Assembly: GCA_964036195.1 (NCBI GenBank)
Contig: OZ038456.1
Coordinates: 1,426,001-1,490,000 of the forward strand
DNA: 64,000 nt
Origin: Sphaerolaimus hirsutus
Taxonomy: Eukaryota > Nematoda > Chromadorea > Monhysterida > Sphaerolaimidae
Direction: 5' to 3'
Shown one piece after another: positions 1,649 to 60,093 of this stretch. Made by a program: the position numbers and the translations under genes. The notes under the pieces were generated by a model. The model worked only from the letters and a program-made list of their open reading frames with translations, did not search any database and was not told the origin of the DNA. The first letter of the stretch is position 1. The number at the start of each line of letters is the position of its first letter.

Positions 1649-4648
1649 AATAATACATTCGGTATAGACTGAAGAAACAGCCGCAATTTTGTGCAACATC
1701 AAAAAAAATGAGAAATACCTTTCTCGAACCCACCAAGGGAACCAAATCCTTTTCATGAAACAAAACTGCTGAAGAAAAAAATTCAGCACCACCTAAGACC
1801 GGGCCGTGTTAAAGTTTGAGATTCACTTGAAAAATGTCAAATGTCACTTAAAATCGACTCGATGTGAATGTCTAGTGGCGACATGCATTTCGAGTGGTCA
1901 TAACATTTGTAACTGGCAGCGGCACTTTTTCAACTATGGAATCGCTGCCGGACTGAATCCTTTTATCTCTGCCCACTAACACTTATAACCCGATTACCAT
2001 TAATTTCTGAATGATTGAAGGGACAACGTTGTTGTTAAAACATACCTACCTAAACTTAGGTACTTCTACTTAAAAAGTATGTGTACTCAGACACTAAGAA
2101 TACTTTTATGTTCTCTCCCAAAAGTATTTTGATTTAGATTTGTTTGGTAAAAATTTCAAAATTTCGTCAAATTCTGAAGGAAAAATTCGAAAATTCGTAA
2201 AAATTGTGAAAATTTAATACCTGATTTAAAAAATTGGTATTCATCTAGGGATTTCTCCCATGACCTCGATTTCTCGTCTGCTGGAAAAAAATCGACTTTA
2301 AAGATTATTGACAGTGGAAAGTATAAGCGTAAATACCTAAATGCCAGGCTATACTACAATTTCTTTCGAAAAAATGCATTAAAAAAGAACCATTATATTC
2401 GAACAAATACGGTATCATCTTAATTCAACGCCAAGCGTAGCGTCCGAATCGGCGATTTTGTTGCGGCTGACGGCAAACTTTTTTCCCCGTGAAGTATGCG
2501 ACACCATTGACAAGTGGCCAGACGTGACAATTCACAATTGACTGGAGTCTGGCCCGCCGCGCACTTTGTCAAATAGGGTTGGATTTTTGTGGAAGGGATC
2601 GGTTCCGGTTTGGGGCATTTCCGGACCCGGTAAAATGTAAAATGTCATGCAAACTGTAAAAGGTCATGTGAAGTTTTTGCCATTTTCCATGTGCCAATCC
2701 CAGACACGACCTTAAAGTGTAAACGTAAAGTTAAGTGTGAAATGCCATGCAAAGTGTCAATTGTCATGACAAATGTCAAGTAAAGTGTTAATTGTCATGC
2801 AAAGTTCAGTAATAAAGTGTTTTTTGTTCTTTTTGACATTTTACATGACATTTGACACTTTACTTTACACTTTACAGGGTCTGGAACTGCCCGCAGGGCA
2901 TTTTACGTGACTTGACACTTTGCATGACATTTGACATTTTAAAGGGTCTTGTAGTGGCACTTGATGTTGTTTTCCCTCCAAGTTTTATGTGGCACTTTAC
3001 CGCTAAATTGCTCTTTTTGTTTTCGGAAGTTTTCAACCAATTCGCAAGATTATAGTTGTTTTTTTAGATCATTTCCCAATAGGTCGTTTAAACCGAACAT
3101 TTCTTTTCACAATTGAGTGAATTGAAAGACCCGTGAACAATGATTCGATTTCACAAGTAAAGATTTACACATTTTTCCCAACACTAGCGTGCATTCTTCT
3201 TGAGACAATTCCGATTTACGCATGACCATTTATATAAAATGCGCCTGCGATAACTAATGATGTGATTATTTCCACTCTGCATGAACCTGAAATTGTTTTT
3301 TTTCATCCATAGATTTTCATCGATATCGTCTCGATGATCGATCGGCTACTCGCCTTTGTTCGCGAAAGTTCAAGGAATTTATCATGATTTAACATTGCGG
3401 TTTTCATTTTCGGTCTGGAGGAAAGTAATTTGCGTGCGTTTTTATTTCCCTTCGTGAACACCGTAAACTCTTGTATAGCGATGAGTGTTAAAATAAACTA
3501 GCATGCTTGAATTTCACGCAGCTAATGCCCAGTAAACATGTAAAAAAAACGTTCAGATGTTTGGATACAACCCCCCCCCATTATGGAATGTGTACGTCTC
3601 ATGCTAATTTTATTAAACTGATATTATTCATTTAGTACACGGAGTTGTGAAAAATTGGTGAACATATATGTTTTTAAGCCGAAATGTAGATTGGAACACC
3701 GCCTCATATTTAAAAAAGGTATTGCCGAAACACCCAAAAAGTCTCGGGGAAAATACACATCTACCTACCTACAAAGCTACCATATTTCTTCTAATAGAAG
3801 AGCGCCGTTCTATTATTTCGACAACTTTTTACCTGCCGTTCTGTTGGAGGTGCCGTTCTATTTGAGGTATTCCGTTTATTAGAAGAAATACGGTATTTAT
3901 GTGTTTACGGTACTTTTACATCCTTAAACTTTTTTTATGTGTTACCTCATTGTGTATTTTATTGTATTGAGTTATGGTTATTCGAAATATTTATATATCA
4001 CCCCAAAACGGATATATTTGAGACGAATATAAATATGACGCAGTAGCTTCTAAGAACTTGCCATGTTTCAGTGAAATGCAATAGCTCGATAATTCGCGCT
4101 AATTACTCGCAACCAGTTTTATTGTCGTTTTCACTTTGCGAGCAAATTTGTCGTGTCCACGCCGCAGCTATCCAAGCATCTATTGTTATTGCGCTTGCTG
4201 TAAATTGGGCATGGTAAATAAGAGAATTCCTTCCAGTGTCAGACGCGTTTCGCCGTTAACGCGCCATTTTTTGATTGTGTTTTTTTGTATACTCGGCGAA
4301 CATGATACTCTGCCCTCGCACTGATTTATGTCTCGTGTTGGAAGCGTGCCAATGATGATTAAAACATGCGTTTCCGTAAAAAGATGAAAAAATTCATAGA
4401 TGTGAATATGTTAACTACATAATATGTTTAAGGCCAACCGGAGTATAGTAGCGTTGTTTTTAGTGTTGTGTTCTAGTGTGTGAAAATGTATCTGTAAATG
4501 CTGTGATATTTGTTTTGTTGGACTTTTCTAAACCTGGTTTTAAGTCTGATTTTTGGCTGAATTGATGGATTATACATAGCCAGAATGTATCAGGATCTAA
4601 TGAGTAAAAAATAGTTTTCTTACATTTTAAATATAACTGCCATAATAC

Positions 4649-12127: not shown

Positions 12128-15100
12128 ATGGAGCCGCAGCCATCTACCTCCCGTGAAATCGTTCCCGCGCCCGATAAAATACAGTGCAATGTCGAATATA
12201 AATCCAGAAGATTATCGCAAAATTATGAACGAAATCACATTTGGCGGCGAGCACATGAAATCAGAGGGAATTCATGGAAACAGACATTGACTATGTGCTT
12301 GAGCACTATTTTAAGTGTGACATTTCAATGCGCAGCTGCCAGTGATATGAAAGCCATGCACAGGCACAGGTTTGACAATTTTTTCAATTAATCTACCATA
12401 TTTCCTCGAATTAACCCCCCCCCAGAAACCCCCTCCCCCTCGAAATACCCCGCCTCCTCTAACTACCCCCCTCGGTTACTTAAAAACATATTCTTTATTG
12501 TGACTTGCACAAAAATTTCTGACGAATTAATACCCCCCCTCGTTTAACCGCCACAGAATTTGAACTATGAAAAAAAACCCAGGGGGTATTTCGAGGAAAT
12601 ACGGTAGTCTATTGAATTTGATTAAAAGTGTCTGGGCTGGGGAAAGTGTACACGACCAGGAAGTTTCGAAATGTGGGAAAATGATACCCTCCTCCGAGAT
12701 ACATCCTTCCGAAATGAGTGTAAAGAGAGTTAAATGCTTATAAATATATTAATTGTTCAAAACATCATCGCTTACAACCTGTCATAACCATAGCATAATA
12801 ACATGTCTGTTATTGTTAGATTTTTCTACGTCTGACTACCTATGTTTTGAACAATTAATAAAAATGGAATTTCATAAAAATTCTGACAAAATAGCACCCC
12901 CACAAGATTAAGGTTTTTAAAGATCAGGATTAAATTTTACTGTTGAGTAAAATACATGTTCCCTGGAGTTTTGAGGATTTTTCCCTTAATTTTCACTAAT
13001 CATCACTAATTTTCAACCTTTTTGCTCATTTTTCACCTGCAAATTCACTAGTTCATGTAATTTTCTGTCTTATTTAAGATATTGTGTCTGTGCCTTTGCC
13101 GACACGTGTGCTTAAATACCCTTTTTGCTATTTTCCCCAACTTTAAGCAAGTAATTTTTTCTCTGAAATACGTTTTTCTGCACACGGGTACTTTCAAAAA
13201 GTATACGTAAAACGTACTTTAGCAAGGTAAGCAAGTACAGGTACTTGTTTCGGTGGGAACATAAACATATCTACTCAGTACCCAAGTACCTAATAGTGAT
13301 GGAATGGCGCCATGGCGCTGGCGCCATTTAAAGGCGCCAAAGGGCGCCGCGCCCTGGCGCCATTGCGCTAGGCACCCTTTTTCCTGGCACTTTTCCATCA
13401 CTAGTACCTACACGTATTTTCCGAGTAAACGTAAATACGCTTCAACAACCATCTCAGACATTCCCAGCAACGAAACCCCGACCACCAGCTGCCATTCACC
13501 GACCATTTAACCTGCTCAGAACCAGACGACCTGTCAGACCAAATTTATGACCTGGTACAACACTCTGCCAACCACAATGGAAGACATCCAGCAATTGGAA
13601 AAGAAATCCATAAACTCGTCTGAAAGTGGGGAGGGTGGACAGTGGTCAGTTTACTGCGCGTCGGAGCCGAGCAGGGGGGTTAACGCGCTGGCGAATGATA
13701 GGGCGCTGTGCCCCTGGCAGTGGGTGTGAGTGGGGGGGGGGGCATTTTGGACAATTTTGAGGGGGTTTAGTTTGGTAAATACTGTACGTGCTCGAATAAG
13801 ACCCCAGGGGAGTTATTATTTCGTCAGAAGTTTTTTAGGGGAGTTATTCAAGGGGGGTGTTATTCGAGGGGGTAGTTGATTTTCCCTCACCTCGACAACA
13901 GGGGGGGAGTTATTCGAGGGGGTATTATTCGAGGGGAACTTATCCGAAAAAATACGGTACTAGCTGAAGGGCACGAGAAAAATGACGTCATGATGATGTG
14001 GGAAATGTCATAACTTTGGCACCAGTTGCGAATTGTACCGACGCACTTTTATGTTTCATTTCAAAACACTTTAGACTGTCTACCGTATTTCCTCGAAATA
14101 CCACCTGGGGGTCATTGTTTCAGAGTAAGAATTTTGAGGGGGGTTAACGAGGGGGTATTTCGAAGGGTGGGGGCTTATATTTCGTCATAAATTTTTTGAA
14201 ATTTCAGTACTAAATTGTCGTCTGTAACGTACGCAGACGTAGAAAAATGCAACAATAACCACTATATATAAGAGTCTATTGACGTTCTCTGTACACTCAA
14301 TTTGGGGGGGGGGTATTTCGAGGGGGGTGGCTAATACATTCATAGTGGCCATTTTGAGGGGGGTATTTCGAGAAAATACGGTATTGGCAGGTTTAGTGAT
14401 CTTTTTGTGTCGATTGTGTGCGGATTGTATATACCTAATTTCTGAAATCTATTTCTATTACAACTCTCTAACACCATTCTCAGTGTGAACCGGGACGAAA
14501 ATCGAAGGCCAAAATTGATATCAGAAGCTCGTTGCCTTTGCGACCGGCCGCGGCCGTCCGGTTCAGTCGATGCTTTATGCCAGCCCATTTTTCGGTCAGT
14601 TTTCCATTCGATTCCTTTCATTTTTCGCCAAGAAAAATCGTGAAAATAAATTTGAAAATTAGGAAAAGTAGTGATGGAATGGCGCCATGGCATTGGCGCC
14701 ATTTGAGGGCGCCAAAGAGCAAAGCGTCATGGCATGGCGCCATTTGCGCTTTGCGCCATTTTTTCTGGCGTTTTTCATTCGCTAGCCCATTGCCATCGGT
14801 CGCCAGCGCCAGTTCCATCACATGACACCACCAATCCCATAACTACCCACTGACTAGTGATGGAAAAGCGCCATGGCCTGGCGCTGGGGCGCTAGCGCCA
14901 AAGCAAAAAGCGCCACGGTGCTGTATTACTTTGACGCCATTGACGCTTGGCGCTAATTTTGCGTGGCGCCAATAACAAAACGCCTGGCGCTGGCGCTGGC
15001 GCGCTAGCGCCAAAGCAAAAAGCGCCATGGCGCTTTTGGCGCTTGGCGCCATATTGCTCTGGCTCACTGGTGCTTGGCGCTGGCGTTCGAAAAAGCGCCA

Positions 15101-15342
15101 GGGCACTTTTGGCGCTTGGCGCCAAAGTACTGGCGCTTTTTCCATCACTACCACTGCCCACTGCCAACAGCCACCACCCTGACAGGTCTACAGCGATCCT
15201 GTACCGGGCTGGCTGCTCGCCAGCAACCGGCCAGTGGCAGTACGAGCGCGGCAGACTGCCCATTGCTGTGGGCTGCCACGCAGTTGCCAGCATGAGACGG
15301 ACTGCGGACAGCGTCGCTGCGCATCTGAGAAGCAGGGCCTAG
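12128..15342 (+). CDS. IL17: Interleukin-17-like secreted cytokine, five putative coding segments
   Basis: Segments are 12128-12369, 13458-about 13602 or 13617, 13643-13725, 14484-14594 and 15186-15342 (TAG). The last three are linked by GTGAGT and GTCAGT donors, AG acceptors and matching phases. They spell the IL-17 core: RALCPWQWVV, NRDENRRPKLISEARCLC, LCQPIFRSTAILYRAGC, then QWQYERGRLPIAVGC. This follows the family pattern CPW, D..R.P..L.EA.C.C, VL.R.GC and (A/V)VGC. The usual GCxC end is GCHA here, losing one canonical cysteine. The hydrophobic run TMCLSTILSVTFQCAAA in the first segment could be a signal sequence. Between segments two and three the frame must move by +1; a 40-nt GA-AG or 25-nt GT-AG intron would do it, and a sequencing error is the alternative. 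Family call strong; N-terminal half tentative. Confidence 0.75.
13294..13403. mobile_element. hAT-like MITE, GGCGCC family
   Basis: Tips TAGTGATGGAA and TTTTCCATCACTA are flanked by GTACCTAA (13286-13293) and GTACCTAC (13404-13411). It is inserted in a diverged ACGTTT-family element (about 13158-13450) whose right end CTTCAACAAC abuts the acceptor of the second IL-17 segment. Confidence 0.8.
14083..14381. mobile_element. TA-flanked MITE, CCGTATTTCC tips, in IL-17 intron
   Basis: CCGTATTTCCTCGAAATACC at the left and its inverse at the right are flanked by TA. It lies in the intron between 13725 and 14484, which also holds a related CTCGAATAAGACCCC element at about 13775-13960. Confidence 0.75.
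14855..15150. mobile_element. hAT-like MITE, GGCGCC/GCGCTT family, in IL-17 intron
   Basis: Tips TAGTGATGGAAAAGCGCC and GGCGCTTTTTCCATCACTA are bounded by CCACTGAC (14847-14854) and CCACTGCC (15151-15158). A related element occupies about 14669-14824 just upstream. Together they account for most of the intron before the last IL-17 exon. Confidence 0.85.
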
Positions 15343-15386
15343 GCTCTGTGGACAACTGGGTGTCTACTGGCTGCCGTGTCTATTCA

Positions 15387-15530
15387 GGACCCTGTAAAGT
15401 GTCAAGTGTCATGTCAAGTGTCAAGAGTCATGGAAAATGCCCTGGAAAATTGTTTGCCTGGAATACACTTGACTTTAGACACTTTGCATGACATTTGATT
15501 TTTACAGGGTCTGGGACTGCCCCCTGGTAG
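15387..15530. mobile_element. MITE, CAGACCCTGTAAA tip family
   Basis: AGGACCCTGTAAAGTGTCAA at the left and TTTACAGGGTCTGGGACTGC at the right are imperfect inverted repeats. The interior has AAGTGTCA/TGACATTT words. It lies just downstream of the IL-17 stop codon. The same family forms an entire intron at 31484. Confidence 0.7.
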
Positions 15531-15872: not shown

Positions 15873-16244
15873 ACATCGTCATTTGGTACATTATTTTAAC
15901 ATCATCTAAAATCTGAAAGGAGACCGGCCGGCCCGGGCCCAGTAGACACCCAATTTCATTGTCAACTAGTGTGTGTTGGCCACTTTGCTCTATATAATGG
16001 CTTGATTCAGTTGAACTTGCGGCTATTTAAAGTTCTGTCATGTAAAATTTAATTTCCTGTGGATTGTTTGTGGGAGAATGACTGAACTGAACAGAAAGTT
16101 TACGTCACTGTAAGTTGTCATTTCTGTGAGGAGCCAGTAAAGTTGTCCATTGTGTTTGGAGATAAGCGAAAAAAATTAGTAATTTATTTTCGTTAAATAC
16201 TTTCTAAAATTGCATAGGTACCTTTTTTACATACTCACTAACAG

Positions 16245-17583: not shown

Positions 17584-20500
17584 AATTTAAATTTTATAAA
17601 TATTGCTATCGCATTCACAAGAGCAGAACTTCGGTCTCCAATGGCCTTTGGCTATTTCTCTTTTTATAATTGCGCATTATTATCATCGATAATGGCATTT
17701 TATAACAGATTGGAAGTTTTGTGACTTTCCGCAGGTTGAATTGTTCATTGCCAAATTTATAATTTCCAATATTGATCAGCACTACCCGCGTGTGTGCAAT
17801 AAATGCAAATTTCTAGAGTTGTTTGTTGACAACGTTCCCGAAGCGAAACAAACTGTAAATATGAATAAACGTGCAAATGATTTAACCGTAAAATTCAATA
17901 ATAAATATTTGGATACCAGATGGAAACGGCTTACGTACCCTATCCCCCCATGGACTTCTTACCCCCTGGGTTGATATAGCCCTCGAGGACTACATCAGCC
18001 CAATGACTACTTCGACCCGACTTTTATAAATTGGGATGATGTAGTCCTCCATACAAAATATATAATTACACTTTTGGGGCATCTGTTGGGCCATGGGAAT
18101 GTGTTTGATATTTCCTTTTATTTATTGCGATGCAAGAACACTGCTTGCATCAGATCAAAAATATTTATTGACGCGTGGATAATATTGGCGTGCCACGCGT
18201 CAATAAATATTTTTGATCTGATGCAAGCAGTGTTCTTGCATCACAATTAGTGATGGAATGGCGCCATGGCGCTAGCGCCCTAAAATGGTATCGTACGTTA
18301 CACCTCTATAAATGCTTCTGTAATGATATACAGACTGAAATATGGGATTTTTTTGTTGGCGCCATTTTGGCGCCTGGCACCATTGTTTCTGGCGCTCTTT
18401 GGCGCCCGGCGCCATTTTTTCAGATGGCGCCGTGGCGTCATAGGCGCCTGGCGTCATTTTCTCTGGCGCCCTGTGGCGCCCGGCGCCAATTTTTGGAATG
18501 GCGCCATGGCGCCATTGGCGCCATTTTTCCTGGCGCTTTTCCATTACTAATCACTATAAATAAGAGGAAATATCAAACACATTCCCATCAACAGATGCCG
18601 GGTCAACAATAGGTCAATGGGTAAATTAAAAGCAAGGCCGGGCCGCGTGCCGCGGGTCAATGTAACGCAAGGCCGCGTGCCGCGGGTCACTGTAACACAC
18701 ACAGTAGGTAATATATGTATAATGGGTTGATATAGTCCTCATACAAAAAGGGCTGTCGGCCGATATAGTCCTCGAGGACTATATCATCCCCCGGGGTAAG
18801 AAGTCCATCGGGGGATAAATCCCGGTAATCGATGGAAACCACAGACAGAACAAATAGAAAAAATATGGCGCGTGCGTGCAGATGATAGCTGTCCGTCCAA
18901 TGTACATTTGTCCACAGTTGTTCAAACGTATTTACGTTTATTCGATAAATACGTATACTCGAGTACTGCGTAAATACGTTTACGTTTCCTCCCGATAAAA
19001 ATACCGGCATTTTTTACGCACTTACTCGCGTACTTCTTGAGAGTACGCGAGTGCCGTAAACGTATTTAGACGGGACATAAGGTGACATTTTGACTGACAG
19101 AGAGAGACAAAAATAGGACATTTTCCTAACAAATAATCGGGAGAGAAAGACACGACTTTGATTTATTCTAGAATAAAAATTTACAAAATTTCAGACTTCT
19201 ACTTTTTATGTGAGAAAAGATACTAACTTTCACGTCTTCTGTCAGGAAAAATACTCATTTTAACGTATTCTGTGAGAAAAATACTCAGTTTTCCCAGAAA
19301 AAAAAGTATTTTACTCACGTTTTACGCAGTGTAAAACAAAAAAGTTTTTACTTTACGTTTTCTGTACTCAGTGGTGAGTAAAAAATAAATACTTTACGTT
19401 TACTTTCAAAAAAGTTGAGTACCTTTAACAACTTGCATTTGTCCAGCCGCTGAGACACTCGCTTCAGATGGGCATGGAGTTGATTTGTGACGGAAGTTGC
19501 TCACTGTTCCCATGGGGGATCTTCAATTGCATGGCACGGCGGCAAAATTTGCTGATGTTCGGGGACAAACGTATATTCTGTCAAGTGACATATTTCAGAG
19601 AATGTCTCAAAGCAACTGTGCAACTTGACAGGTGAAGGCACGGAGGGTCTAAAGCAGAGTTGTTAAAATACTGGTATTTTTGGTAAGTGTAAGTGTAAAT
19701 ACACTTTCCAACTTTTAATTATGGATACCAAAAGTGTAAGGTATTTTTTTAATACCCAGGAAAGTGTAAAAAAAGTGTAAGTGTAAAAAAAATTTTTAGA
19801 ACGAGCTCCCACTATTGAGCATTAGAAAATACCACTGTTTTCACCTTTAGATCAATTTACCTATAATTTTTATTCATTATTTCACATTTTACTGCCAATT
19901 ATGAAACATTTCAGACTGTAACAAATTGAGTGGTATGAAGTTGCCTAATAATGGCACTTTTTCAGTGTTGATATTTTACTTATTAAGCAATGTGATACAC
20001 ACTGTTTAAATGCAAGAATGTACATGCAGCAAATATCAATACAAAAGCCAGTCGACTTTGTATCCAGCTGGTGAATTTCAATTGATCTTGTCCTTTTTAC
20101 AAAAGTATGATGAAACTGTAGAATACCATGAGTACTGTTCAAAGGTCAGAGATAGTGCTAGTTTGCACATTTGCCATATTTTCTACATTCAATGCATAAC
20201 TGGATATGTGCACTGTGCAGTTATTTTTTGTACATGAACCAGTTTTATGCTTTCTCAAAAGCATAAGACAGGGTCATCTGAAAGAAAAAAATACACTTTC
20301 TGTACCCGGGTATTTTGCCCAGGAAAGTGTCAAAAAGTGTATGGGTATTTTATGAAAGTGTAAGTGTAAGTGTAAATATAAATACCCATTTACCCGGGTA
20401 TTTTGGGTAAGTGTGAATACACTGTCATAACTCTGGTCTAAAGTGCCCAATTTTTTAAAAGTAAACGTAAATGTACCTAGGTATTTACTTGTATATAATG

Positions 20501-24027: not shown

Positions 24028-27000
24028 ATGGAACGGTCCGGCAGTACAAAACAGTCTGCGGCTAGTCGATTACTAAGCAAATTTCGTTCATTGTCGCCTA
24101 CGAGGTCGCCCGCTTCAAGCAGAAAAAGTCAACCTACGTCTGCGTCGACTAAAAGAAAGGTGCTCTCCATCTGTGGAGATTTTAATTTTGGAACTTTGAA
24201 GGGGGATTTTGGAGCCATATACCGTATTTGCTTGAATAGTTCCCCCCCCTTGAATAATTCCCCCCCTCGAATAATCCCCCTGTAAGATGGGCGAGGAAAT
24301 AATTATTCCCCCCCCTTGAATAATCCCCCTGAAGAGATTACCGTATTTCCTCGAAATACCCCCCCTCGAAATACCCCCCCCCCTCGTTTGACCCCCCCCC
24401 TCTCAAGACCACTATGAAACAATCACCCCCCCCCCTCGAAATACCCCCCCCCAAATTGAGTGTAAAGAGAACGTACATCACAAATATGGCAGTTTGTGTT
24501 CTGCGTAGTGCAGAACACACGTTAAAACAATGTCGGAATCACGTTAGAACAGTGTACATACGATCTACATACTAATATTAGTCTACAGAACCTTATAAAT
24601 GGCGGTTTTTGTTGCATTTTTCGACGTCTGCGTACGTTTCAGACGACAATTTCGTACTTGGTTTTCAAAAAATTTCTTGTGAAATAATAACCCCCCCCTC
24701 GAGATACCCCCCCTCGTTTGACCCCCCCCCCCCTCTCGGGACCACTATGAAACAATCACCCCCCGGGGGGTATTTCGAGGAAATACGGTATATACATTTG
24801 TTGTGCCCAATTTGAACAAAAATGGCACATTGTATGTATGTATGTATGTATGCTTGAAAACTTTGACGAAATAATAATTCCCCCCTTGAATAATCCCCCC
24901 CTCGAATAATCCCCCCCTCAAAAAAGTCTGACGAAATAATAATCCCCCAGGGGGATTTTTCAAGCAAATACGGTAATACACGATGGAGCAAATTATTGCG
25001 TTTTTGAGGTAGTTGTGAATAGGTTAAGGTCCTTAGCTAATTTTGTCACTAATTGCAGTGTTTCTTGGGACAATTCAGATAGCATGTCAAGTGACAAGTG
25101 AAAAGTGAATCTGCAATCGCGTGTCCAAGCAGAAATCAACTTGTAAGTCAGAAGTCAACTAAACTAGAAAATGGCAAAATACCGTATTACCTCGAATTAC
25201 TCCCCCCCAAATGGGCTGGGGAAATAATAAACCCCCATGGGGGTATTTCGAGGTAATACGGTATCCCATTCAACTTCATCATTCAATCGACACTTTTCTT
25301 ATCACGTCTTATCACATAAAACACTTAACCTAAACACTTAACGCACTACAGGTGCGAGACTTCTACAAGTCCGTGGACACCTGCGGTACTTTCAATTGCC
25401 GCGCCACGCTCGTAGTAGAGGGCGCCCGATTCCACGCGTGCAAGCACCAGGATCGTAATTTAATTGACCCGATGAGCTTTTGTCGGGCAGCCCGATTCGT
25501 CGGGCATCGGAAAGTGTGACGCAGATCGGGAGCCGATTCAACTACCGTATTTCCTCGAAATACCACCAGGGGGTTTAATTTTTACTCAGCGCGAAAACAC
25601 CTGGGGGTATTTGAAAGGGGGGGGTAATTCATGGGGGGGGGTGTTATTTCGAGGAAATACGGTAGATGTTGTGTGATAGAAAAGTGACAAAGGAGTTTTA
25701 ACATATCAGCGAGTGAGTATACGTGACATAAATGCATATCACTCTTATTTTGTCACTTGACTTAGCACTCATGCGCCAGTCCCAGACCATGTAAAATGTC
25801 AAGTGTCAAATGCCATGCAAAAATCATGTAAAATACCCTGCAAAAATGCAACCATTTCACAGGGTCTGGGATTGCTCCCATAACAACAACCCATGGCTAA
25901 TACCACTCGCGGAATAACAGTCAAATCACCTCATCAAGTAGGGCACGTAAAATATCCGATATTGAAGAATCGGGTTGCCCGACAAGCAAATCGGGCCAAT
26001 TAAATTTCGTCCCAGCTGGCGCACGCGTCCGACTATTTCAGGCAGCTTTTCGTGGCCGACGCTGAAACCAGGGCCAGCCAGGCTTTACAGGGAGATGCGC
26101 TCGGTCGGTTAATTAGGTATACACCGGAATTTTACATTTTTTTACATTTGGGTGAATTAAAATTAAAAATTATATATTTTTGAAAGGTTCAAACCCAAAA
26201 ATGCCGAAAAAGATTACCGTATTTCCTCGAAATACCCCCCTCAAAATGGGCACTATGAATTTGTGGTCCGGGAAATGCATAACAGACGTTCAAAACACTT
26301 ACTGTGTTACGTTAGAACATCGTTTATACCATCTACATCTTTATATAAGGCTGTAAAAACTTATAAATGGTGATTATTGTTGCATTTTTCACGTTTTTCT
26401 TTCAAAATTTTCACTCTGAAAAAATAAACCCCCGGGGGGTTATTCGAGGAAATACGGTATTTAAATATAACAAAAATACCGGAAAATTCGAAAACTGTTT
26501 CGAGTCAATAATTTTTCTTTAAAAAAACACGATTTCAAGTGTCTCTAGTGGTGGAATAAAAATCAAAAAGCCAAAATTTCAAAATTTCAAAATTTTTTTG
26601 TCATGTCAGTTTCATTACGCGCAGGCAAGCCACGTCGTGTGCTGGGCGATTCCCCTCCACCAGCCAGACTGGGGCACATTGCCAGTTTCAGCGACGACGA
26701 AACCACCACCCACGCGGCACTACGTGAGTACTGCGTACCGTACCGTATTGTACCGTACCGTAACTAGCGTTCAAAAAATCTCTGGGAGATTGATAGAAAA
26801 TTTCGGAAAATGTAAAAAAATCTACCTAGTTCTGCTGGTTTTTCCGGAGAGTTTTTTTATATTTTATTTTATAACTACATATTAAAAATCTCTTATAAAA
26901 AATCTCTTAAAAAGATATGTATTTTTGCTATTTATTTATATTTTCTCGTTGTTTCTCAGAGAGATTCACCATACCCTACTTTTTACCGCAATTTTAGAAA

Positions 27001-30000: not shown

Positions 30001-31714
30001 TATCCCTCCGGGGAGCGATCTATCCAGCCCCCACGAGAGTCAAAATTCTGGAGACCCTGGAATAATTGACTCATTAACTAGATATGATAGATATGGGGCC
30101 AGTACCGCAAATTGAGAAGTAAAATGGCAAATTCGAAGTGCAAGGAGCAGTGAATTGAGAAGGAAATTGGCAATAGCGAAGGGAAATTACCTTTAATTTT
30201 TTTTCATTCGCTTTTGCCAATTTACTTGCCATTTCACTTCTTTTTTGCCAATTTTCTTCTCAATTCACTACGCATTTGCCATTTCACTTCTCAATTTGCA
30301 GAACTGGCACATGAATCAGACTGTCACTGCCCCCCCCCCACCCAAACACACCCCCCCCCCAGTGCTAGTGTACCAATCGATCCACGCATCCGACCACTTC
30401 ACGGTGGAGCTGCGCGAGTGCCCCCGGTGCAAACGAGTGCAACTACCCCCGCTGGCACCCCTGCAGATACACGTGGCCCCCTGCAGAAAGCTGATCGCCT
30501 GCGACCACTGCTTTAGGGGCCTGAGCCAGTGCATTTGCGACCCCAATTTGCAGTATCAGGTGGGAGAGATACCGTATTTACTCGAAATACCCCCAGGGGG
30601 GTTATTTTTTCAGAGTGCAAATTTTGAGGGGACTTAAGGGGCGGGACTTATTTTGGGGGGGGGGTATTATTTCCCCAGAAATTTTCGAGACAGATCGTAG
30701 TAAAGATGGGTCAAAAATTCCAATGTTTAGTTCCAATAATTGCAAAAATTTGTCGAATTGAAAATTGGGGATCCAGGATTAGAGAAAACGCTGTTATCAA
30801 ATAAAATTTCAAATAAAAATTCAGAAATTCGTCAATTTTTCCAGGACAGGAAACGACAAAATGCAGTGTTAGACACGCGAAAAAAAACGAATCTATTAAT
30901 TGCGTGCAAGGTGCGAAAGTGATCGTCAGTATACTCCAGTCACTTTACACCCTGCACGCGTGGTTCCCGCTGGAAACGTGCCAACGATTTTTTATCACAT
31001 GCTATTTTCATAAAAAGTTGAAAAAAGTCATCGCTGTTATAACGCCATACGTTAACTCATTCACAACAATGATTTTCTTCATCTTTTATGCAAAAATCGC
31101 ATGCTTAATTATCGTTGGCACGCTTCCAATGTGAGACATAAATCAGTGCGAGGGCAGAGTATCATGTCCGCCGAGTATATTAGCAAAGCAGTAAAAAACT
31201 CATTTTCAAATCATTGGAGAATAAAATCCAGACGGCCTAGAACTTAAAACATTCAAAAATTCAAAGCAATCGCAGAACATTCAAATGATTCATACGAAAA
31301 ATAAAAGACTGCAACGGTTTTCTATACAAAATCCACAAAAATCAAAAATTTCCAAAAAATAAAATAAAAACCACAGGCAGTGTACCATTGTAAACACGGC
31401 GCGCGCGTGCTAGGCGACCGCACCATGGACTGTTTCTGTCAAACCTACGAACTGGCAGCCAAGCAGACGAACTGCGACGGCAGGTGCCACTCACAGACCC
31501 TGTAAAATGTCATTCATAGTGTCAAAAGTCATGTAAAATGCCCTGCAAAATGGCAACTGATTTGCCATTTTGCAGGGCATTTTACATGACTTTTGACACT
31601 TAGCATGACATTTGACATTTTACAGGGTCTGGGAGTGCTCCCAGGGCTTACGACTTCAGGAACGGGGACGCGATCGCCGTGCCCAGGGCGCCCATCGCCA
31701 GTTATGAAATGTGA
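24028..31714 (+). CDS. BTB/POZ-domain protein with cysteine-rich C-terminus, ten exons, 416 residues
   Basis: Exons: 24028-24159, 25352-25450, 26016-26103, 26610-26723, 27855-28004, 28527-28636, 29691-29874, 30363-30559, 31377-31483 and 31645-31714 (TGA). They sum to 1251 nt, all phases agreeing. A Ser/Arg-rich start (about 1-44) leads into a BTB fold: TLVVEGARFHACKHQ, LAHASDYFRQLF, then after a Ser/Pro/Thr insert FQWFLEAVIPNPVLRDIT and DEVLEALMRLSVRF. A helical, BACK-like stretch follows (LFWLGWCVRYDFPSEAF). The C-terminal third pairs cysteines (CPRCKR, CDHC, CICD, CKHG, CFCQ), suggesting zinc binding. BTB proteins usually dimerise and often act as cullin-3 adaptors or transcription cofactors; which applies is unknown. 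Donors are GT except after 25450, where only GA-AG keeps frame. Introns 2 and 9 coincide with transposons. Confidence 0.75.
24222..24975. mobile_element. CCGTATTTGCTTGAATAG-tipped element with a nested CCGTATTTCC MITE, BTB intron 1
   Basis: The outer tips CCGTATTTGCTTGAATAG and CAAGCAAATACGG are flanked by TA. C-run words GAATAATTCCCCCC fill its ends. A CCGTATTTCC MITE lies inside at 24341-24788, also TA-flanked. A relative of the outer element is at 44929-45241. Confidence 0.75.
25451..26015 (+). mobile_element. Transposon that coincides with BTB intron 2, GA-AG ends
   Basis: The ends CGTAATTTAATTGACCCGAT and the inverse of GGGCCAATTAAATTTCG are inverted repeats, continuing into GTCGGGCAGCCCGATT. 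CAG flanks both sides (25448-25450 and 26013-26015). Coding sequence stops at CAG/GATCG and resumes after CCCAG in the same frame. The BTB motif FHACKHQ-LAHASDYF is intact only if exactly this block is removed. An in-frame TAA at 26001 rules out an earlier acceptor. Two MITEs are nested inside (25543-25665 and about 25775-25890). A fragment of the same family lies near 35130-35180. Confidence 0.7.
26217..26457. mobile_element. TA-flanked CCGTATTTCC MITE in BTB intron 3
   Basis: Short copy with CCGTATTTCCTCGAAATACC and a TTATTCGAGGAAATACGG end, flanked by TA. Its centre (GTTACGTTAGAACATCG) is shared with the copy at about 11326-11563. Confidence 0.75.
27143..27795. mobile_element. MITE with repeated AGTCGACAAGTCCA words, BTB intron 4
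   Basis: Inverted ends begin TTGAGGCGTC and end GACGCCTCAA. AAAGTCGACAAGTCCA recurs several times across the body. A second full copy is at about 54423-54705 and a left-end fragment at about 42545-42760. Confidence 0.7.
28095..28370. mobile_element. MITE, ACTCGGCGGACATGATACTC family
   Basis: ACTCAGCGGACGTGATACTC at the left is followed by a TTATGTTTCATGTTGGAACC segment, with the inverse at the right. Relatives lie at about 4130-4360, 30910-31180 and 41705-41957; the ACTCGGCG tip and CTTCCAACATGAGACATAAA word identify them. Confidence 0.6.
30097..30312. mobile_element. MITE, GGGGCCAGTACCGCAA family, BTB intron 7
   Basis: GGGGCCAGTACCGCAAATTG and an inverted CAATTTGCAGAACTGGC end enclose AAGTAAAATGGCAAATTCG words. 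It fills about half of the intron before the exon at 30363. Confidence 0.65.
31484..31644 (+). mobile_element. MITE that is exactly BTB intron 9 (candidate introner)
   Basis: The 161-nt intron consists of one CAGACCCTGTAAA-family MITE plus one CAG. Its tips GTGCCACTCACAGACCC and GGGTCTGGGAGTGCTCC are imperfect 17-bp inverted repeats; CAG flanks both sides. The first bases of the element are the GT donor and the duplicated CAG supplies the AG acceptor. Exons on either side join in frame (NCDGR-AYDFRNGD). This is the geometry described for introners, where a DNA transposon carries one splice site and gains the other from its duplication. Confidence 0.75.
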
Positions 31715-33002
31715 TTTACAGTTTTACAGTTTTACGCCAGTTTTACACTTGAATTTACCCTTTAAATTTATTTCACCATTTATTTAATTGGTTGCGTTTC
31801 GGGGGGGGGGCGTACCCTGTAAAGTGTCATGTGAAGTGTAAGATGTCTTGTAATTTCGGCCGGTGCACAACAGCTGTTTTTCAGTATTTTTGTTTTATTC
31901 ACATTGGAAAATGGTAAGTTGGGAACTAGTTACAAATTTGTAAGAAAATTTAACCAGACACTCTAGATCAGGGGCACTATTACAGGGTGGGGGAGAGGGG
32001 GGGTCGTTGTGGGGTATTCCAATTTTCCAGGATATTTGTCGAGTCAGAATATTTTGACACACTTGACATTTAACATCAATGAGCAATATTGTTAGAACGC
32101 ATACATACTCTCACTATTTATTTCCAATTAATGTAAATATCTACCGTATTACCTCGAATTAACCCACCCCTCGAAATACCCCCCCCCTAAAATTCGGCTG
32201 AGGAAATAATAACCCCGCCCTCTAAATACCCCCCTCCCTAAAACTGAGTGTAAAGAGAACGTACATGACAAATACCGCAGTTTGTCATCTGCACAATGCA
32301 GAACACACGTGTAAACTGATGATTGAGTGACGTGAGGGGCAGGGTTTGTGTGTATATATACAGTTATGTACGCCTATAAACACATATACATCTATGTGAT
32401 TGTTTGATTTTTCTACGTCTGAGTATGGGTAATCTCCGAAAATTTCTGGCGAAATGATAGACCCCCCTCGAATTATCCCCCCTCAAATTTTGCTGGTGAA
32501 ATAATAAACCCCCTGGGGGTATTTCGAGGTAATACGGTAAATACATTATCACAAGAATATAAAGCAATGTTCAAATATGTATATAAATAATTCATGACTG
32601 AAATCATTTGTACCCGAGAGGTTTTATTTGATGTTATGGTAAATATTTTGCTGTTGTGCTCATATGAAATGCATCATTGAAGGCAGCACCATTGGCAGCC
32701 GAAACACTATTTGACACTTGTGTTGACACAAGTTGACTATGTCAACTGGACATGTCAACTCAGCTTCACGGCTTCACGTGTCGCGGGCGAACTCCAAATA
32801 CATGTCGAAAAGCAATGTTGAAAAATGAATATTACGGTGCACAAGTGCATTGGAAGACCGCTCTGTGACACGTGAAGCCAAAATCGACAATCGACTCGAG
32901 TCGACACACATTTGCTATCTATCCTGGAAACCCCTGCCTCCCATCTCCGCTTTTGGAACGACGATCCATTCAAAAATTCATAGTATTTATACATTTTTAT
33001 GG

Positions 33003-33120: not shown

Positions 33121-36100
33121 TTAATTATGAAACGACCATTTGTCCATGATGCGATCAAAGTAGTGCTTTTCAAACTCCTCGTTATATCTGCAAAAGTAAC
33201 GAGAATGGTGATCCAAAAAAATGCATCAACACATTACTATGTAGTTACCGTATTTCTTCTAATAGAACGGCATACCCCCAATAGAACGGCAGGTAAAAAT
33301 TATGTTGGGGTGTGCCAAAACATGAAAATAGATGAAAAATGGGTGGCAAAAACGTTCAAAGCATTCAAATAGAGATTTTATCGCAAATTTATGTTCTGAT
33401 ATACCGTATTTCCTCGAAATACCCCCCCCCCCTCGGAATACCCCCCCCTCGAAATACCCCCCCTCAAAATGGACACTATGAACTTATAAACCCCCCCCCT
33501 CGAAATACCCCCCCCCCAATTTAGTGTATAGAGAACGTAAATGACAAAGGCTGCGGTTTGTCATCTGGGTAATGCAAAACACACGTTAAAAACGATGACT
33601 CTGTTATGTGAGAACAGTGATTATACGTCTACACACTTATACAAGTCTTTAGAGTCTTATAAATGGCGATTTTTGTTGCATTTTCGACGTCTGCGTACGT
33701 TTCAGACGACAATTTAGTACTTGGTTTTCAAAAAATTTCTGGCGAAATAATAAACCCCCCCTCAAAATTCTCACTCTGAAACAATAAACCCCCCGGGGGT
33801 ATTTCGAGGAAATACGGTAAAAATATTGCTGAAACCTCATTTAAAAATAAGGCTATGTTCAAATGAAGAACGTATGAAAAATTTGGTGAGAAAAATAGAA
33901 CGGCAGCCTCCAATCGAACGGCACCTTCAATAGAACGGCAGGTAAAATAGAACGGCGCTCTTCTATTAGAAGAAATACGGTACTTGACTTTTTCACGTCG
34001 CTTGTCCACTTTTTCATGTCACCTTATAAACGACATACCTATTCAAAGCGACTTGAAACTTGGCTGGGTCGACTGTATTATCTCTCACAAAAAGCCAGAA
34101 TAACTTGTCAACTTGTCTCGGGGTCACTTCCGTTTTCGTTCTGCCCATCACGCCCAGCCGCCGCGCCATTTTATCCAAATTCTCTGGCGCATCCATGGCG
34201 CTGGCGCCAAAGGACTCGCTGAAAATATAGTGATTGACAAGGGGGTGCACCGATACGCACATCTGCCCGATACGCACATTTGCCCGTTTTTTTCACTTGA
34301 CACTTTTCCAAGTGATTTTCAGATATGAGTAAAGTGAAAAAAAGTTGCGCAATGACATTAGTGAACTTTTTTCACTTCACTCATATCTGAAAATCACTTG
34401 AAAATGTGTCAAGTGAAAAAAACAGTGAAAAAAGCCATTTTTCACTGTTTTTCACTATCGGGCAGATGTGCGTATCAGGCCTGCCCCATTGACAATACCT
34501 GCCTGGACATATTTACACGTTGAAATTATGCCAACATTTACGATAAATTGAAGAATGATAACGACGTGAACATTTGCGAATAATCAAAATTAGCAACAAA
34601 AACTCCTGAAAATGGTCACGGTTAGATAAATGGATAAGCGGTAAGAACTTCGGGGGGGGGGGGTCAAACGGGATTGACTATTTGCACAGCGATTCAGCAA
34701 CGTTATGACATGTAGTGCCAACAGCGAAACAACGTGTTGACAAGGCCTTGTCAACACGTTGTTTCGCTGTTGTCTCGATGTGTCATAATGTTGTTTCAAT
34801 GCTGGGTTTGTGCGCGTCACAATTAAAGCATGCATTAACATGCTGTGGGACGATGTTGTCCCAACGCTGACAATTTTGTCAGAACGTTGTTTTCAAGTTG
34901 GTGGAAATGTTGTAACCACGTTGGCACTACATGTCATAACGGTGGTGAATCGCTGTGTTGGCGTCGGGATCGGGATTGGGGTTTCGGAACTGGAGATCGG
35001 AATCCCGTTTGAACCCTAGGGGGGGGGGGCGTTGTGCAAACCACTTATGTATCAACTCTATCAAGACATCAAAAATATGTATCTGCAAAGCTTGCGCGAA
35101 CTAAATAGCAGCCCGCCATTAGAAAATGGAAAGCAAAAATCGGGTTGCCCGAAAAACGTGTCGGGCAAATTGAATCTCGCACCTGAACTCACAACAGAAA
35201 CTGATCAATGGTAGTAGTCTTTTGAAGGGTGGCAACAGTCTTGACGAAGTAAAACCACTTGAGCAAATCCACACCCTCCAAAACCGGTTTTCCACCGATA
35301 GCGGGGTTGCATTTCGGCTCCATACTCACTATGTACAGGGATTTGGTGCAGAAACCCGCCTGAAGTTGCAGCGTATTTATGTGAAAATTGCGGAAACCAA
35401 TTTGCAGAATAAAATGACGTATATCCTCGAATAAGACCCCAGGGGAGTTATTATTTCGTCAGAAGTTTTGGAGGGGGGAGTTATTCCTCGGGGGAGTGTT
35501 GGGCAGAAGTGTGTTATTCAAGGGGATGAGTTTTTTTCCTCGGAAGATTCACTCTATTCATTGTGTGAATGCATTGCATCAACTCATCAAATCCAGGTAT
35601 TTAACAGTTAAACAACAACCAAAACAAGGTATTCATGCAAAAATTTGTGTCCATCGGCATCTACCTAAATCATTCAAATACACATTGTGAATACATATAC
35701 CAAATACCCAGAGGGGGAGTTATTCAAGGGGAGTTATTTTTCCTCACCTGACCGACAGGGGCGAGTTATTCAAGGGTGGATGTTATTCAAGGGGTAGGTC
35801 TTATTCAAGGTATATGGTATCTTTTTTCCAAAAAAACTCACTTTTCTCAGGTGCGCTTTGAATGGCTGGTGAAAACTTTTCGCTTTTGTGCTGAAGCTGC
35901 GTATAATGGGGATAATTAGCGTTAAAAGCGGAATTTGAAACAAAAATCGAATGTCACAAATAGGGTTCAAACGGGACCGCGGTCCGGAGAAAAGTCGAGA
36001 CTGAGGCGGTCCCGGTCCCGACATTTGAAAAAAGCTAGTCCCGGTCCCGACATTAGAAAATTTCTGGTCCCGGTCCCGGTCCCGGTCCGAAAATCTGGTC

Positions 36101-55808: not shown

Positions 55809-56014
55809 TTATGCATGCGGTGTTGAAAATATTTCAAATAAATAGCAGTTTTTCTATTTTGCATACGCTTTTTACGTTTTCCCTAGTACCCGGTATTTTA
55901 GTCAGGAAAACGTAACAAAACGTAATGGTATTTTTGAAAATCGTAAACGTAAATGTAAGTATATATACCCGAATAACCGGGTATTTCGGGTAACGTAAAT
56001 ACGTTTTCAATACA

Positions 56015-56340
56015 ATGACATCGATACAATCAGGGACGTATCCAGGATTTTTGAGCGGGGGGGGGCTGCTTGTTTACGGAGGCCATACAATGACATCGAT
56101 ACAATCAGGGACGTATCCAGGATTTTTGAGCGGGGGGGGGCTGCTTGTTTACGGAGGCCGGCGAGGGGGGGGGGCTCAGCCCCCCCCCCCCTAAAATTTT
56201 AGCTACATAGAGGCGGAATGGCGCCATTCCGTCACTATGTAGCTAAAATTTTAGGGGGGGGGGGGGCTGAGCCCCCCCCCCTCGCCGGCCTCCGTAAACA
56301 AGCAGCCCCCCCGCTCAAAAATCCTGGATACGTCCCTGGT
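56015..56340. repeat. Tandem duplication and giant hairpin in a GGACGTATCCAGG element
   Basis: A unit of about 72 bp (ACAATGACATCGATACAATC plus the element tip) is repeated twice at about 56015-56160. The rest is a near-perfect hairpin centred on GGCGGAATGGCGCCATTCCG (about 56213-56235) with poly-G and poly-C strands facing each other. Confidence 0.7.
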
Positions 56341-57266: not shown

Positions 57267-60093
57267 GCGACCGGCCATTATCAGACATGGTCGTTTTCGA
57301 ACGGGTCAATTACAAGCCACAAGGACATTCCCAATCAATTCCCAACGCTAGTCCTCAAAATGGGCTGCACCACAATTCTCCCCCACAGGACAATTTGAGA
57401 CATTACACAGCTGTGGGTAGCAGAAATAGGGGGACACAGCCTAATGGGGCTGGGAGAAGTGTGATAGATTTTTGTGTGATTTTAAATGGAATTTTGATCA
57501 TTTTTGGATTGTGGCTCAATTGTGGCTACGATTGGGTAGGATTGTGATGGTGGCTATTTTATGTTTTATGGTAAGAATGAAGTACTTTTTCACAGATTTT
57601 GTCATTGAGGGGGTCAGATGAGGTTTGATAGTGATATACTGGACCCCTGGACATGTGCTCATATTGAGTTCAGCTTAACTATTACTTATTCCCATCGTAT
57701 CACGTATGTGCATATAAAATACACAAATACTTATTTAAAAATTATGCTTTTAAATTATTTTGATGTTAAGGCAACACTGATGACACAGAAAACTCATCTT
57801 AAGCACACAAACTCACTGAACTATTTGTTTGACACAAAAACTGAAGGAATTTGATTCAAGGCATACTATGCAATTTCCCAACTGAAAATATGATCTGGTC
57901 TTGCATAACTCCTACTAGGGTTGGAAAAAAAACGTTTTTTTAACTCGATGTTTTTTTTATAAAAAAACGTTTTTTTTTATAAAAAACGTTTTTTTTAAAA
58001 GCTCCCAGATATGACCTTGTGTCAACATATATAGGTATATCAGACAGTGACAATACTCTAGGTATGTATAGGTATGTCAACATATATAGGTTGTTACTTT
58101 GGGAGTGATATGTTACACACTGGAGGTACATGGAAGCACATTACCTCAATATTATATACTACAGCAACATATTACAGCTTATAACCCATGGTAGCAGATA
58201 GAAATGGATACTTTGATACTAAAAATGCCACAAAACCAATGAAAACAACCACCAATGTCAATTTGTGTGTGAAATTGCGCGCTTGCGCGTGAAATTTTTG
58301 CAAAATACCTAGTGCTTAGTACTAAAAATTTCGGCCGATGTTTGTTTGTTTTTTAAACATTTCGGACGTCATGTTTTTTTAAATAAAAAAAACGTTTTTT
58401 TTTAAATAAAAAACGTTTTAAAAAAACATCGGCCAACCCTAACTCCTACCCCGGTCGACCGACATTCACAAAAAAACATAGAAATTGACTTCTCACTGAA
58501 AAATAATGACTTCTCGGGCTACCCCCATTTACCCGTCAAAAAAACATCCCCCAAACCAACCACATTTAACTTGTCAAGTCTGCTCGAATCATCATCAGTT
58601 GCAATGATGGCACGAGCGCCGCTGCGCACTAGCGTTCGTAAAAAACGCTCACTAGCGTTGGGAACGATGACTGGACGTCGCAAAGCGCCCATCGATGTGA
58701 GAGTGTCGATTAGAAGAGCTGAAATGTTTGCGGGGGTTATTTTATAGAAACCATTGAAAAAACCGGCTGGTTTCAAATAGATAAATCGGACATTTTTAAA
58801 GAAATTATCAATTATGGAAAAGTAGGAGTCCAAATTCAAAATAACGCGGTTACCCGCGTGCCGGGCACCCTACGCCCTAAACAATTGAATCCGGAACCAG
58901 TTATTGCCGTGTCTAGGGTTGGAAAAAATCAATTTTTTAAATTAAAATCAGATTTTTTAAATCGTCCAATGTGTTTTAAAAAAACGGTTTCGATGCCTGT
59001 TTTTTTAAGACGGTTTAAAAAACACCGGCAATCTCTAGCCTTTGCCTGCAAAAAATTGCAAAATAGCTAGTGCAAGTATGCCTAGTGCACGTCTACCATA
59101 AATTTTGTCGTTTTATTTTTTTTAAATTATGATCAATTTCCACCCTGTGATTTTAAAATCAGATTTTAAAAAATCAGTTTAAAAAATCAACTGCCAACAC
59201 TCGCCGCGTCCATGTAAATATACCCCAAACCAAAACCATCCTCGACAAACCCCAACCCCCAAAACAAAACCCACCGTCAGCATTCCCATCCCAATGCAGA
59301 GGCACTTTTTTCGCAGCGCCGCCGTGGGTACGCCTGCTCGTAGTGGGAAGGTCCCCCGGTTCGAGTAATTCCACATTTTCGTCCCCGGGGGTTGGCACCC
59401 ACATTTCTGATATGTAGGTGTCTGTGGGGGGGGAGGGGGGGGGTTAATTGGGGGTTCAGTTTGGGTACTGGGGGTTTTTGAACGTTTTTTTACTTGGTTT
59501 TCTGAAATAGTGGGGTTCTGTAGTGATGCTGCTTCAAAATTGGTGATTAATCGATTTATCAGACGCCGCGACAACATTAACCATCGTAAACATGAAACTT
59601 TATCACTTGACGAAATGCCCTAAAAAGCATCGGCCGGGGGCACTCCTGTAATCCGTAAGGTGTCAAGTGTCAAATGTTATTGTCAAATGTAAAATGCCAA
59701 TTAAAAAGAAAATACTTTATTATTGAGAATTAGATGGACATTTCCGAGACTTATGTTATTTCTGCACACCATCAAAATATATTTGACAATTTTCTTCACT
59801 TTATAGCTGAAATTCACGCAGCACAAATATTCCACATTAATTACTTATCCTTTGACACTTTGCACGGCAATTGACAAATTTGTTTCACATTTGACACTTG
59901 ACAGGGTGCGGGGCTGGCACCATGCCCGCCTGCGACGTCAAATAATCCAAAAAATCCGACATCAAAAGAACACCGACCCAAATCCACAGCGTCATGTGAC
60001 TCTAAATGGTCTGTCCTGGCAGCCATGTACTTTGACTCGTCCCACGCAGCCGTGCGCCATGTGTGCGTTCGAGAAAAAACGCTGCAATGTTAA
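57267..60093 (+). CDS. Tentative four-exon gene for a basic, disordered protein
   Basis: Segments 57267-57416, 58482-58725, 59281-59350 and 59905-60093 (TAA) join in consistent phase to 216 residues. Support is the acceptors CCCATTACAG, AAACATAG, CCACCGTCAG and CACTTGACAG and readable composition: DRPLSDMVVFERVNYKPQG, SGYPHLPVKKTSPKPTTF, RTSVRKKRSLALGTMTGRRK, PIPMQRHFFRSAAVGTPARS and KEHRPKSTASCDSKWSVLAA. No domain is recognised; charge and Ser/Pro content suggest a nuclear or chromatin-associated protein, but that is only composition. hAT-like elements sit in introns 1 and 2. The last acceptor would lie inside a CAGACCCTGTAAA-family MITE. The start is missing. In the first segment the frame also runs on to a TGA at 57545. 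Confidence 0.4.
57916..58441. mobile_element. hAT-like MITE, AAAACG family
   Basis: Tips TAGGGTTGG and CCAACCCTA are bounded by perfect ACTCCTAC duplications (57908-57915 and 58442-58449). The interior is a shortened version of 54776-55455. Confidence 0.88.
58914..59202. mobile_element. hAT-like MITE, short, AAATCAG-word relative of the AAAACG family
   Basis: Left tip TAGGGTTGG and right tip CCAACACTC are bounded by GCCGTGTC (58906-58913) and GCCGCGTC (59203-59210). Words TTTTTTAAAT and AAAATCAGATTTT replace the usual AAAACG. Confidence 0.7.
59625..59925. mobile_element. MITE, CAGACCCTGTAAA tip family
   Basis: GGGGGCACTCCTGTAATCCG at the left and CTTGACAGGGTGCGGGGCTGG at the right, with GTCAAGTGTCAAATG words, mark a diverged copy of the family that forms intron 9 of the BTB gene. 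Confidence 0.55.

Follow-up and report, generated by a model that had tools for sequence, protein, structure and literature searches.

MITE-type Introners, in the available part of their description (PMC9860276), span whole elements with TIRs and TSDs and usually leave the mRNA length unchanged; the same text reports varied splice-site recruitment, GA donors reaching 40% in certain families, and copepods among the hosts. In the copepod Eurytemora affinis, GA/GG donors amount to 10-12%, always after AG and in recently gained introns, and many additional canonical introns have been gained; no transposon origin was proposed (PMC5714493). NuwaI, of the PHIS (Harbinger-like) superfamily, is described in the accessible portion of PMC4482050 as a group reported from animals alone, with a CWG duplication and TIRs that usually start with GGG, mobilised by a PHIS transposase with a Myb/SANT partner.

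The locus compared here lies in a window of 64,000 nucleotides, the whole stretch of DNA that was analysed, which is part of a 348-Mb, 762-contig assembly. Block 31484-31644 of the window is composed of a 158-bp hairpin MITE, which we call family-1, and one CAG target copy. Judging from the sequence, the block is probably an introner (rough probability 0.8), that is, a non-autonomous DNA transposon inserted at a CAG in a BTB coding exon and removed from the transcript as an intron. The features around it are as follows.

30363..30559, plus strand: predicted exon with weak zf_C2H2_10 similarity (E 0.0033, below the Pfam cut-off)
31377..31483, plus strand: predicted upstream coding exon of the BTB gene, ..AVYHCKHGARVLGDRTMDCFCQTYELAAKQTNCDG plus AG (boundaries and phase by inspection)
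31481..31483, plus strand: left target copy CAG, the end of the upstream exon (from the sequence and the CWG flanks in family-1)
31484..31641, plus strand: family-1 MITE, 158 bp, near-perfect hairpin, with 5' tip GTGCCACTCACAGACCCTGTAAA and 3' tip (reverse complement) GGAGCACTCCCAGACCCTGTAAA
31484..31485, plus strand: putative GT donor from the family-1 tip, CAG/GTGCCA (from the sequence and the genome-wide tip pattern CWGGTGCCANTCCCAGACCCTGTAAA)
31503..31505, plus strand: TAA in the MITE tip; with the block retained, the protein would end ..GRCHSQTL
31624..31625, plus strand: alternative AG (TTTTACAG) within the MITE, with the frame shifted by 19 nt when the same donor is used
31634..31635, plus strand: alternative in-frame AG in the right tip, GGGAG/TG, adding 3 residues
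31642..31644, plus strand: right target copy CAG, which would supply the AG acceptor (from the sequence)
31645..31714, plus strand: predicted last coding exon, AYDFRNGDAIAVPRAPIASYEM, stop TGA (from GC and codon-position score, without homology support)

The coincidence of both intron ends with the MITE tip and a flanking CAG, which had been pointed out in a sequence-only reading of the window, is present as described, with the GT donor and the CAG acceptor at exactly these places. Read as an intron in phase 2, the block takes the form CAG/GTGCCA...GTGCTCC CAG/GGC, and across the predicted junction at 31483/31645 the residues ..NCDG would be joined to R and then to AYDFRNGDAIAVPRAPIASYEM. The exons do join in frame, as that reading also stated; since none of the three frames meets a stop within 60 bases of the junction on either side, frame continuity is weak evidence by itself. 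Of the related copies that it listed, two are clear, namely 15387 (best blastn piece 7.8e-22) and 25775 (7.3e-16), whereas the one at 59625 is badly diverged, its best pieces reaching 0.008 to 0.03. A CAG on both sides is also the pattern of any consensus intron; at this block it is meaningful only because non-genic family-1 copies stop at the same base, with CWG outside. The inverted arms are 96% complementary between 31488-31512 and 31613-31637 and 93% complementary between 31501-31556 and 31562-31617, and the RNA of 31464-31664 folds at -116.5 kcal/mol (z = -16.8), with none of 200 shuffles folding equally well.

Family-1 is abundant. Its tip core CAGACCCTGTAAA occurs 10 times in the window at up to two mismatches, a count reached by 0 of 100 shuffles, and at up to one mismatch it was found 33,557 times genome-wide (16,878 + 16,679), against 486 (229 + 257) for the reversed control; we infer an element number near 16,000. 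GT-type ends with a CWG flank (CWGGTGCCANTCCCAGACCCTGTAAA, at most one mismatch) number 6,987 in the genome, against 0 in the reversed control. Among 53 distinct ends from the first 30 genome matches, internal repeats included, the three bases outside the ten-base tip follow CWG (C in 41, A or T in 42 and G in 41), while the first tip base is G in 41 and the second is T in 24, G in 24 and A in 5. The two ends of an element are asymmetric, one starting GTGCCA and the other GGGGCA. From 50 loci and the window we obtained 61 end pairs, a few of which share an end; identical 3-bp flanks were present in 27 of them (15 CTG, 11 CAG and 1 CAT), and the 34 pairs without identical flanks include some mispaired internal repeats. 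Exactly one GT end is found in 22 of the 27, and with the GT placed first the target is CTG in 13 and CAG in 9; since the target is CWG, many insertions duplicate CTG and not CAG. The joined flanks have a GC content of 0.506, as compared to 0.418 for controls, and the openness of ±45 bases over the joined flanks did not discriminate (50/61 elements and 8836/10873 control positions). Many copies lie outside exons, so family-1 is a MITE family of which only a part would act as introners. Further copies in the window are listed here.

2612..2960, plus strand: compound or nested family-1 copies
15376..15523, plus strand: non-genic family-1 copy, right end CTG-flanked, left tip decayed
31811..31995, plus strand: old, diverged family-1-like copy

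CACTA elements carry the terminus CACTA or CACTG at the very end, with a 3-bp TSD outside it. The CACTC in its tip suggested that family-1 belongs to this group (CMC). This was rejected, as both the conserved tip and the duplication are more distal than CACTC; GTGC/GGAG, 4 bases in length, separates the CACT motif from the duplication. A lone match of the tip pattern among viral contigs (L001, by its look a phage contig) was dismissed as a chance match, and two further viral scans gave no match. The genome yields at least 163 matches to DDE_Tnp_4, and the sole transposase fragment inspected (L056) bears no family-1 tip. Many of the DDE_Tnp_4 transposases are near-identical, and most of the matches include some 190 additional bases containing 3-5 TGA; in the inspected fragment, the added stretch looks like two short ordinary introns.

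Some other features of the window were observed in passing. A very common repeat with ends ACCGTATTTCCTCGAAATACCCCC is found, for example, at 25546-25671, 33410-33824 and 30570-30660, and one of these repeats sits some 10 bases within the predicted intron that starts at 30560, counted from its donor. Positions 763-927 look like the last exon of a gene related to short-chain dehydrogenases (adh_short_C2 at 1e-5, marginally below the Pfam cut-off), and a 75-bp unit forms two perfect tandem copies at 56010-56159. The stretches 241-529, 14870-15190 and 18357-18522 consist of dense repeats rich in GGCGCC; these leave frames open on either strand and could readily pass for exons.

The behaviour of the family in other genes was approached by joining the flanks of two-ended family-1 copies, viewing the frames on both strands and testing the frames picked by eye. 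Copies of family-1 are placed exactly within conserved exons: with the flanks joined and a single target copy kept, proteins that match known families across the junction are regained at six events in four genes (DDX47 twice, OSCP1 twice, PRIM2 and SLC35E1). In the DDX47-like gene (L049, minus strand), two elements lie about 40 codons apart; the joined frame matches Pfam DEAD at 8.1e-23, the joined protein aligns with human DDX47 (PDB 3ber) at 6.6e-40, with 100 residues gap-free over both sites, and further exons are 47-82% identical to a working version of the human DDX47 sequence. The OSCP1-like gene also bears two elements, and its joined frames match at 3.4e-19 and 4.4e-17; across each site, residues and profile positions are equal in number. 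The joined flanks of the SLC35E1-like gene match Pfam TPT at 8e-10 over residues 3-80, with the site at residue 40, and further exons were recovered by tblastn with a working version of the human sequence as the query. In the PRIM2-like case, the joined frame matches Pfam at 6e-13 and the site is without a gap in the one PDB alignment shown; two near-identical loci about 100 kb apart (L041 4923-5099 and L043 4919-5095) share the insertion and were counted as one event, their right tips reading GGGAG in one and GGGAA in the other.

In all six tool-supported events, the element is oriented with its GT end towards the 5' side of the coding strand (two-sided p 0.031), and the same holds for 9/9 when weaker cases are included (BTB, a kinase glycine loop and SMYD-like, the last two by eye; p 0.0039), both p-values being optimistic because the cases were first spotted by eye. 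Among the distinct frames picked by eye, 5/17 GT-first and 0/9 GG-first frames match Pfam over the site; of the 17, two belong to elements whose ends both read GT. A GG-first frame, L054 2659, gives a weak Oscp1 match (0.013) that does not cover its junction. The kinase-like case (L028), recognised by eye, received no Pfam or PDB confirmation, and the SMYD-like case (L044), recognised in the same way, received none from Pfam. The other introns of these genes, as determined by fit, are four GT..AG and one best fitted as GC..AG in DDX47, one GT..AG in OSCP1 and two GT..AG in SLC35E1. A 1.06-kb piece of a CCT gene chosen regardless of MITE content (L055; PF00118 match, CCT5-like by eye) has three introns, all GT..AG, and none of the three is a MITE.

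Similar putative introns are thus found at unrelated positions, in the six events in four genes and in the BTB gene, as is the criterion for introners, and in family-1 the similarity extends up to the predicted splice boundaries, with TIR and TSD, which is another. That family-1 copies are spliced is what we infer from these joins. The earlier proposal that the tip gives the GT and the duplicated target the CAG holds in the BTB gene and at OSCP1 site 1, as well as in another two genes judged by eye, and the broader idea of a DNA transposon family that makes introns on insertion gains support from copies in conserved exons of four other genes, where joined flanks restore the proteins.

The BTB gene contains a second putative whole-MITE intron, formed by an element of another family, family-2.

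25352..25450, plus strand: BTB exon, ..VVEGARFHACKHQ (joined-exon Pfam BTB match)
25448..25450, plus strand: left CAG beside the family-2 element, donor side CAG/GATCGT
25451..26012, plus strand: family-2 element, the second whole-MITE intron of the BTB gene (predicted), tips GATCGTAATTTAATTG and GGACGAAATTTAATTG
25773..25878, plus strand: family-1 copy nested in the family-2 element, target duplication CAT
26013..26015, plus strand: right CAG, acceptor of the predicted GA..AG intron
26016..26116, plus strand: BTB exon, LAHASDYFRQLF..GRLI(R) (joined-exon Pfam BTB match)
35135..35182, minus strand: family-2 relative, single end, minus-strand flank CAG followed by GTGCGAG

The predicted intron 25451-26015 has the exact ends GA..AG and lies between the two CAGs. 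Its flanking exons match Pfam BTB at 5.8e-7 when joined, while neither matches Pfam singly, and the joined exons align without a gap to the Miz-1 BTB domain over the junction. The nearest in-frame alternatives are GC..AG, which would lose five residues, and GT..AG, which would lose or add at least 13.

At the family-1 sites, exact removal would leave GT..AG where the target is CAG (BTB, OSCP1 site 1 and SMYD-like; the kinase-like site has AAG/CAG) and GT..TG where the right copy is CTG (both DDX47 sites, OSCP1 site 2, PRIM2 and SLC35E1). Four of the five CTG-type events leave gap-free proteins, although exact removal there gives GT..TG. The left copy is CCG at DDX47 site 1 and CGG in PRIM2, with CTG as the right copy in both; the tested proteins were built with the left target copy for DDX47 and with the right one for PRIM2. 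We tentatively propose, at slightly less than even odds, that the host removes family-1 introners exactly even at CTG, guided by the hairpin and the GT of the 5' tip, so that GT..TG introns would arise, with GA..AG for family-2, and a transposon family would introduce non-AG introns into genes with GT..AG introns. It is unlikely, though by no means far-fetched, that internal AGs are used at CTG targets and residues added, by GT..GGGAG (+3) or GC..ACAG (+5 or +7). Such in-frame combinations do exist: GGGAG offers GT..AG with three more residues in SLC35E1 and one PRIM2 locus, and GC..ACAG would add seven at both DDX47 sites, in SLC35E1 and in both PRIM2 copies, or five at DDX47 site 2. However, GGGAG is absent from both DDX47 elements, OSCP1 site 2 and the second PRIM2 locus, and five or seven added residues would split the conserved DDX47 stretch RLFALVLAPTREL. 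At OSCP1 site 2, the enumeration of splice choices is empty because no frame is open over 60 bases there. The gap-free alignments appear to speak against added residues at the CTG sites.

For the BTB block itself, we regard it as improbable that an ordinary, unspliced MITE was inserted into the final exon, or the 3' end, of the gene, so that the protein ends ..GRCHSQTL. The TAA at 31503-31505 is indeed in the upstream frame, and the splice sites are weak by inspection: the donor CAG/GTGCCA is poor, no pyrimidine tract precedes the acceptor, and TTTTACAG in the MITE offers a competing AG. The last 22 residues also lack a homologue; a search with the 223-residue C-terminal part of the BTB protein that includes them gave no match, and a protein search of the genome itself with the BTB-gene sequence returned only the three exons of this gene. 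On the other hand, the sequence beyond the block is GC-rich (0.627, equalled or exceeded by 175 of 6394 67-mers in the window) and carries the codon-position signal of the gene, scoring 2.3 bits in the plus-strand frame given by the sequence-only reading versus -2.0 and -11.0 in the others, by a method that identifies the correct frame for 104 of 113 pieces taken from the other exons. One reverse-strand frame scores 1.6 bits, nearly level with the 2.3. GC and codon-position composition support coding sequence beyond the block, with this reverse-strand frame as a counterpoint. Moreover, family members lie mid-exon in conserved genes, with the further DDX47 exons in place, which argues against an unspliced MITE.

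Less probable still is a precise removal at the DNA level, by programmed elimination of the kind that ciliate IESs undergo, or by an RNA mechanism that does not involve the spliceosome. Either would account for the exact removal needed at CTG targets without an AG acceptor (both DDX47 sites, OSCP1 site 2 and PRIM2), but excision at the DNA level does not predict the 5' bias of the GT end (6/6, or 9/9 with the weaker cases), and the genes look animal by inspection, with ordinary GT..AG introns. That a MITE landed in a pre-existing intron that later shrank to the element is most improbable of all: copies do occur within larger introns (25773-25878, and a family-1 end inside DDX47 intron 6), but at the BTB block both splice sites are tip and target duplication to the base, a coincidence that recurs in OSCP1, DDX47, PRIM2 and SLC35E1.

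In the favoured reading of the block as an introner, a PHIS-type transposase would place the MITE into CWG and duplicate this target. The transposon would bring the 5' splice site, and the 3' splice site would be borrowed from the duplicated target: insertion at a CAG with the GT tip upstream would create a GT..AG intron, CAG/GTGCC.../CAG/, whose removal would restore the frame to the base. Transcribed GT-first, the element would present CWG/GTGCC, the hairpin and a second CWG; the hairpin may draw the two intron ends together, and the spliceosome would cut from the tip to the target copy, restoring the codon. A CWG-duplicating transposase and a tip starting with GT would together be a recipe for intron birth, with ready splice sites and an intact frame. 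The finding also suggests that introns with GA/GG donors, like those of the copepod, derive from transposons. If the CTG copies are spliced exactly, a single family would supply natural CAG- and CTG-ended introns that are otherwise similar, making 3' splice-site choice testable.

Introners as such are already known; the new part is possibly the NuwaI-type CWG targets, together with possible non-AG acceptors. Among the top-listed open-access papers, none was found on NuwaI-type or GT..TG introners, subscription papers being mostly outside the scope of this search. Like the MITE-type Introners of Micromonas and Aureococcus, cited in the available part of PMC9860276, family-1 would carry one splice site and take the other from the target duplication; unlike the Introners in that text, it has a 3-bp CWG duplication, asymmetric GT/GG ends and many CTG copies without an AG acceptor. 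As in NuwaI, according to the accessible portion of PMC4482050, family-1 duplicates CWG (26 of the 27 identical flanks, from 61 pairs, are CAG or CTG) and has a G-rich tip, and in both respects it would seem to resemble this group of the PHIS superfamily. The TIRs of NuwaI usually start with GGG, whereas one end of family-1 reads GGGGCA and the other GTGCCA, and that portion of the paper makes no mention of introner behaviour. The family-2 intron, CAG/GA..CAG, parallels the GA/GG introns of Eurytemora affinis (PMC5714493). A hairpin, direct repeats at the borders, a proposed MITE-like origin and, possibly, non-canonical ends are shared with the introner elements of Amoebophrya (PMC7789003) and the nonconventional introns of euglenids (PMC4770533), as far as the available parts of both papers describe them. 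The borders in those two systems are very variable, whereas in family-1 a single transposon family, together with its CWG target, determines the ends; and, compared with the euglenid nonconventional intron as set out there, the BTB block has the hairpin but GT..AG ends, while the CTG copies would be GT..TG.
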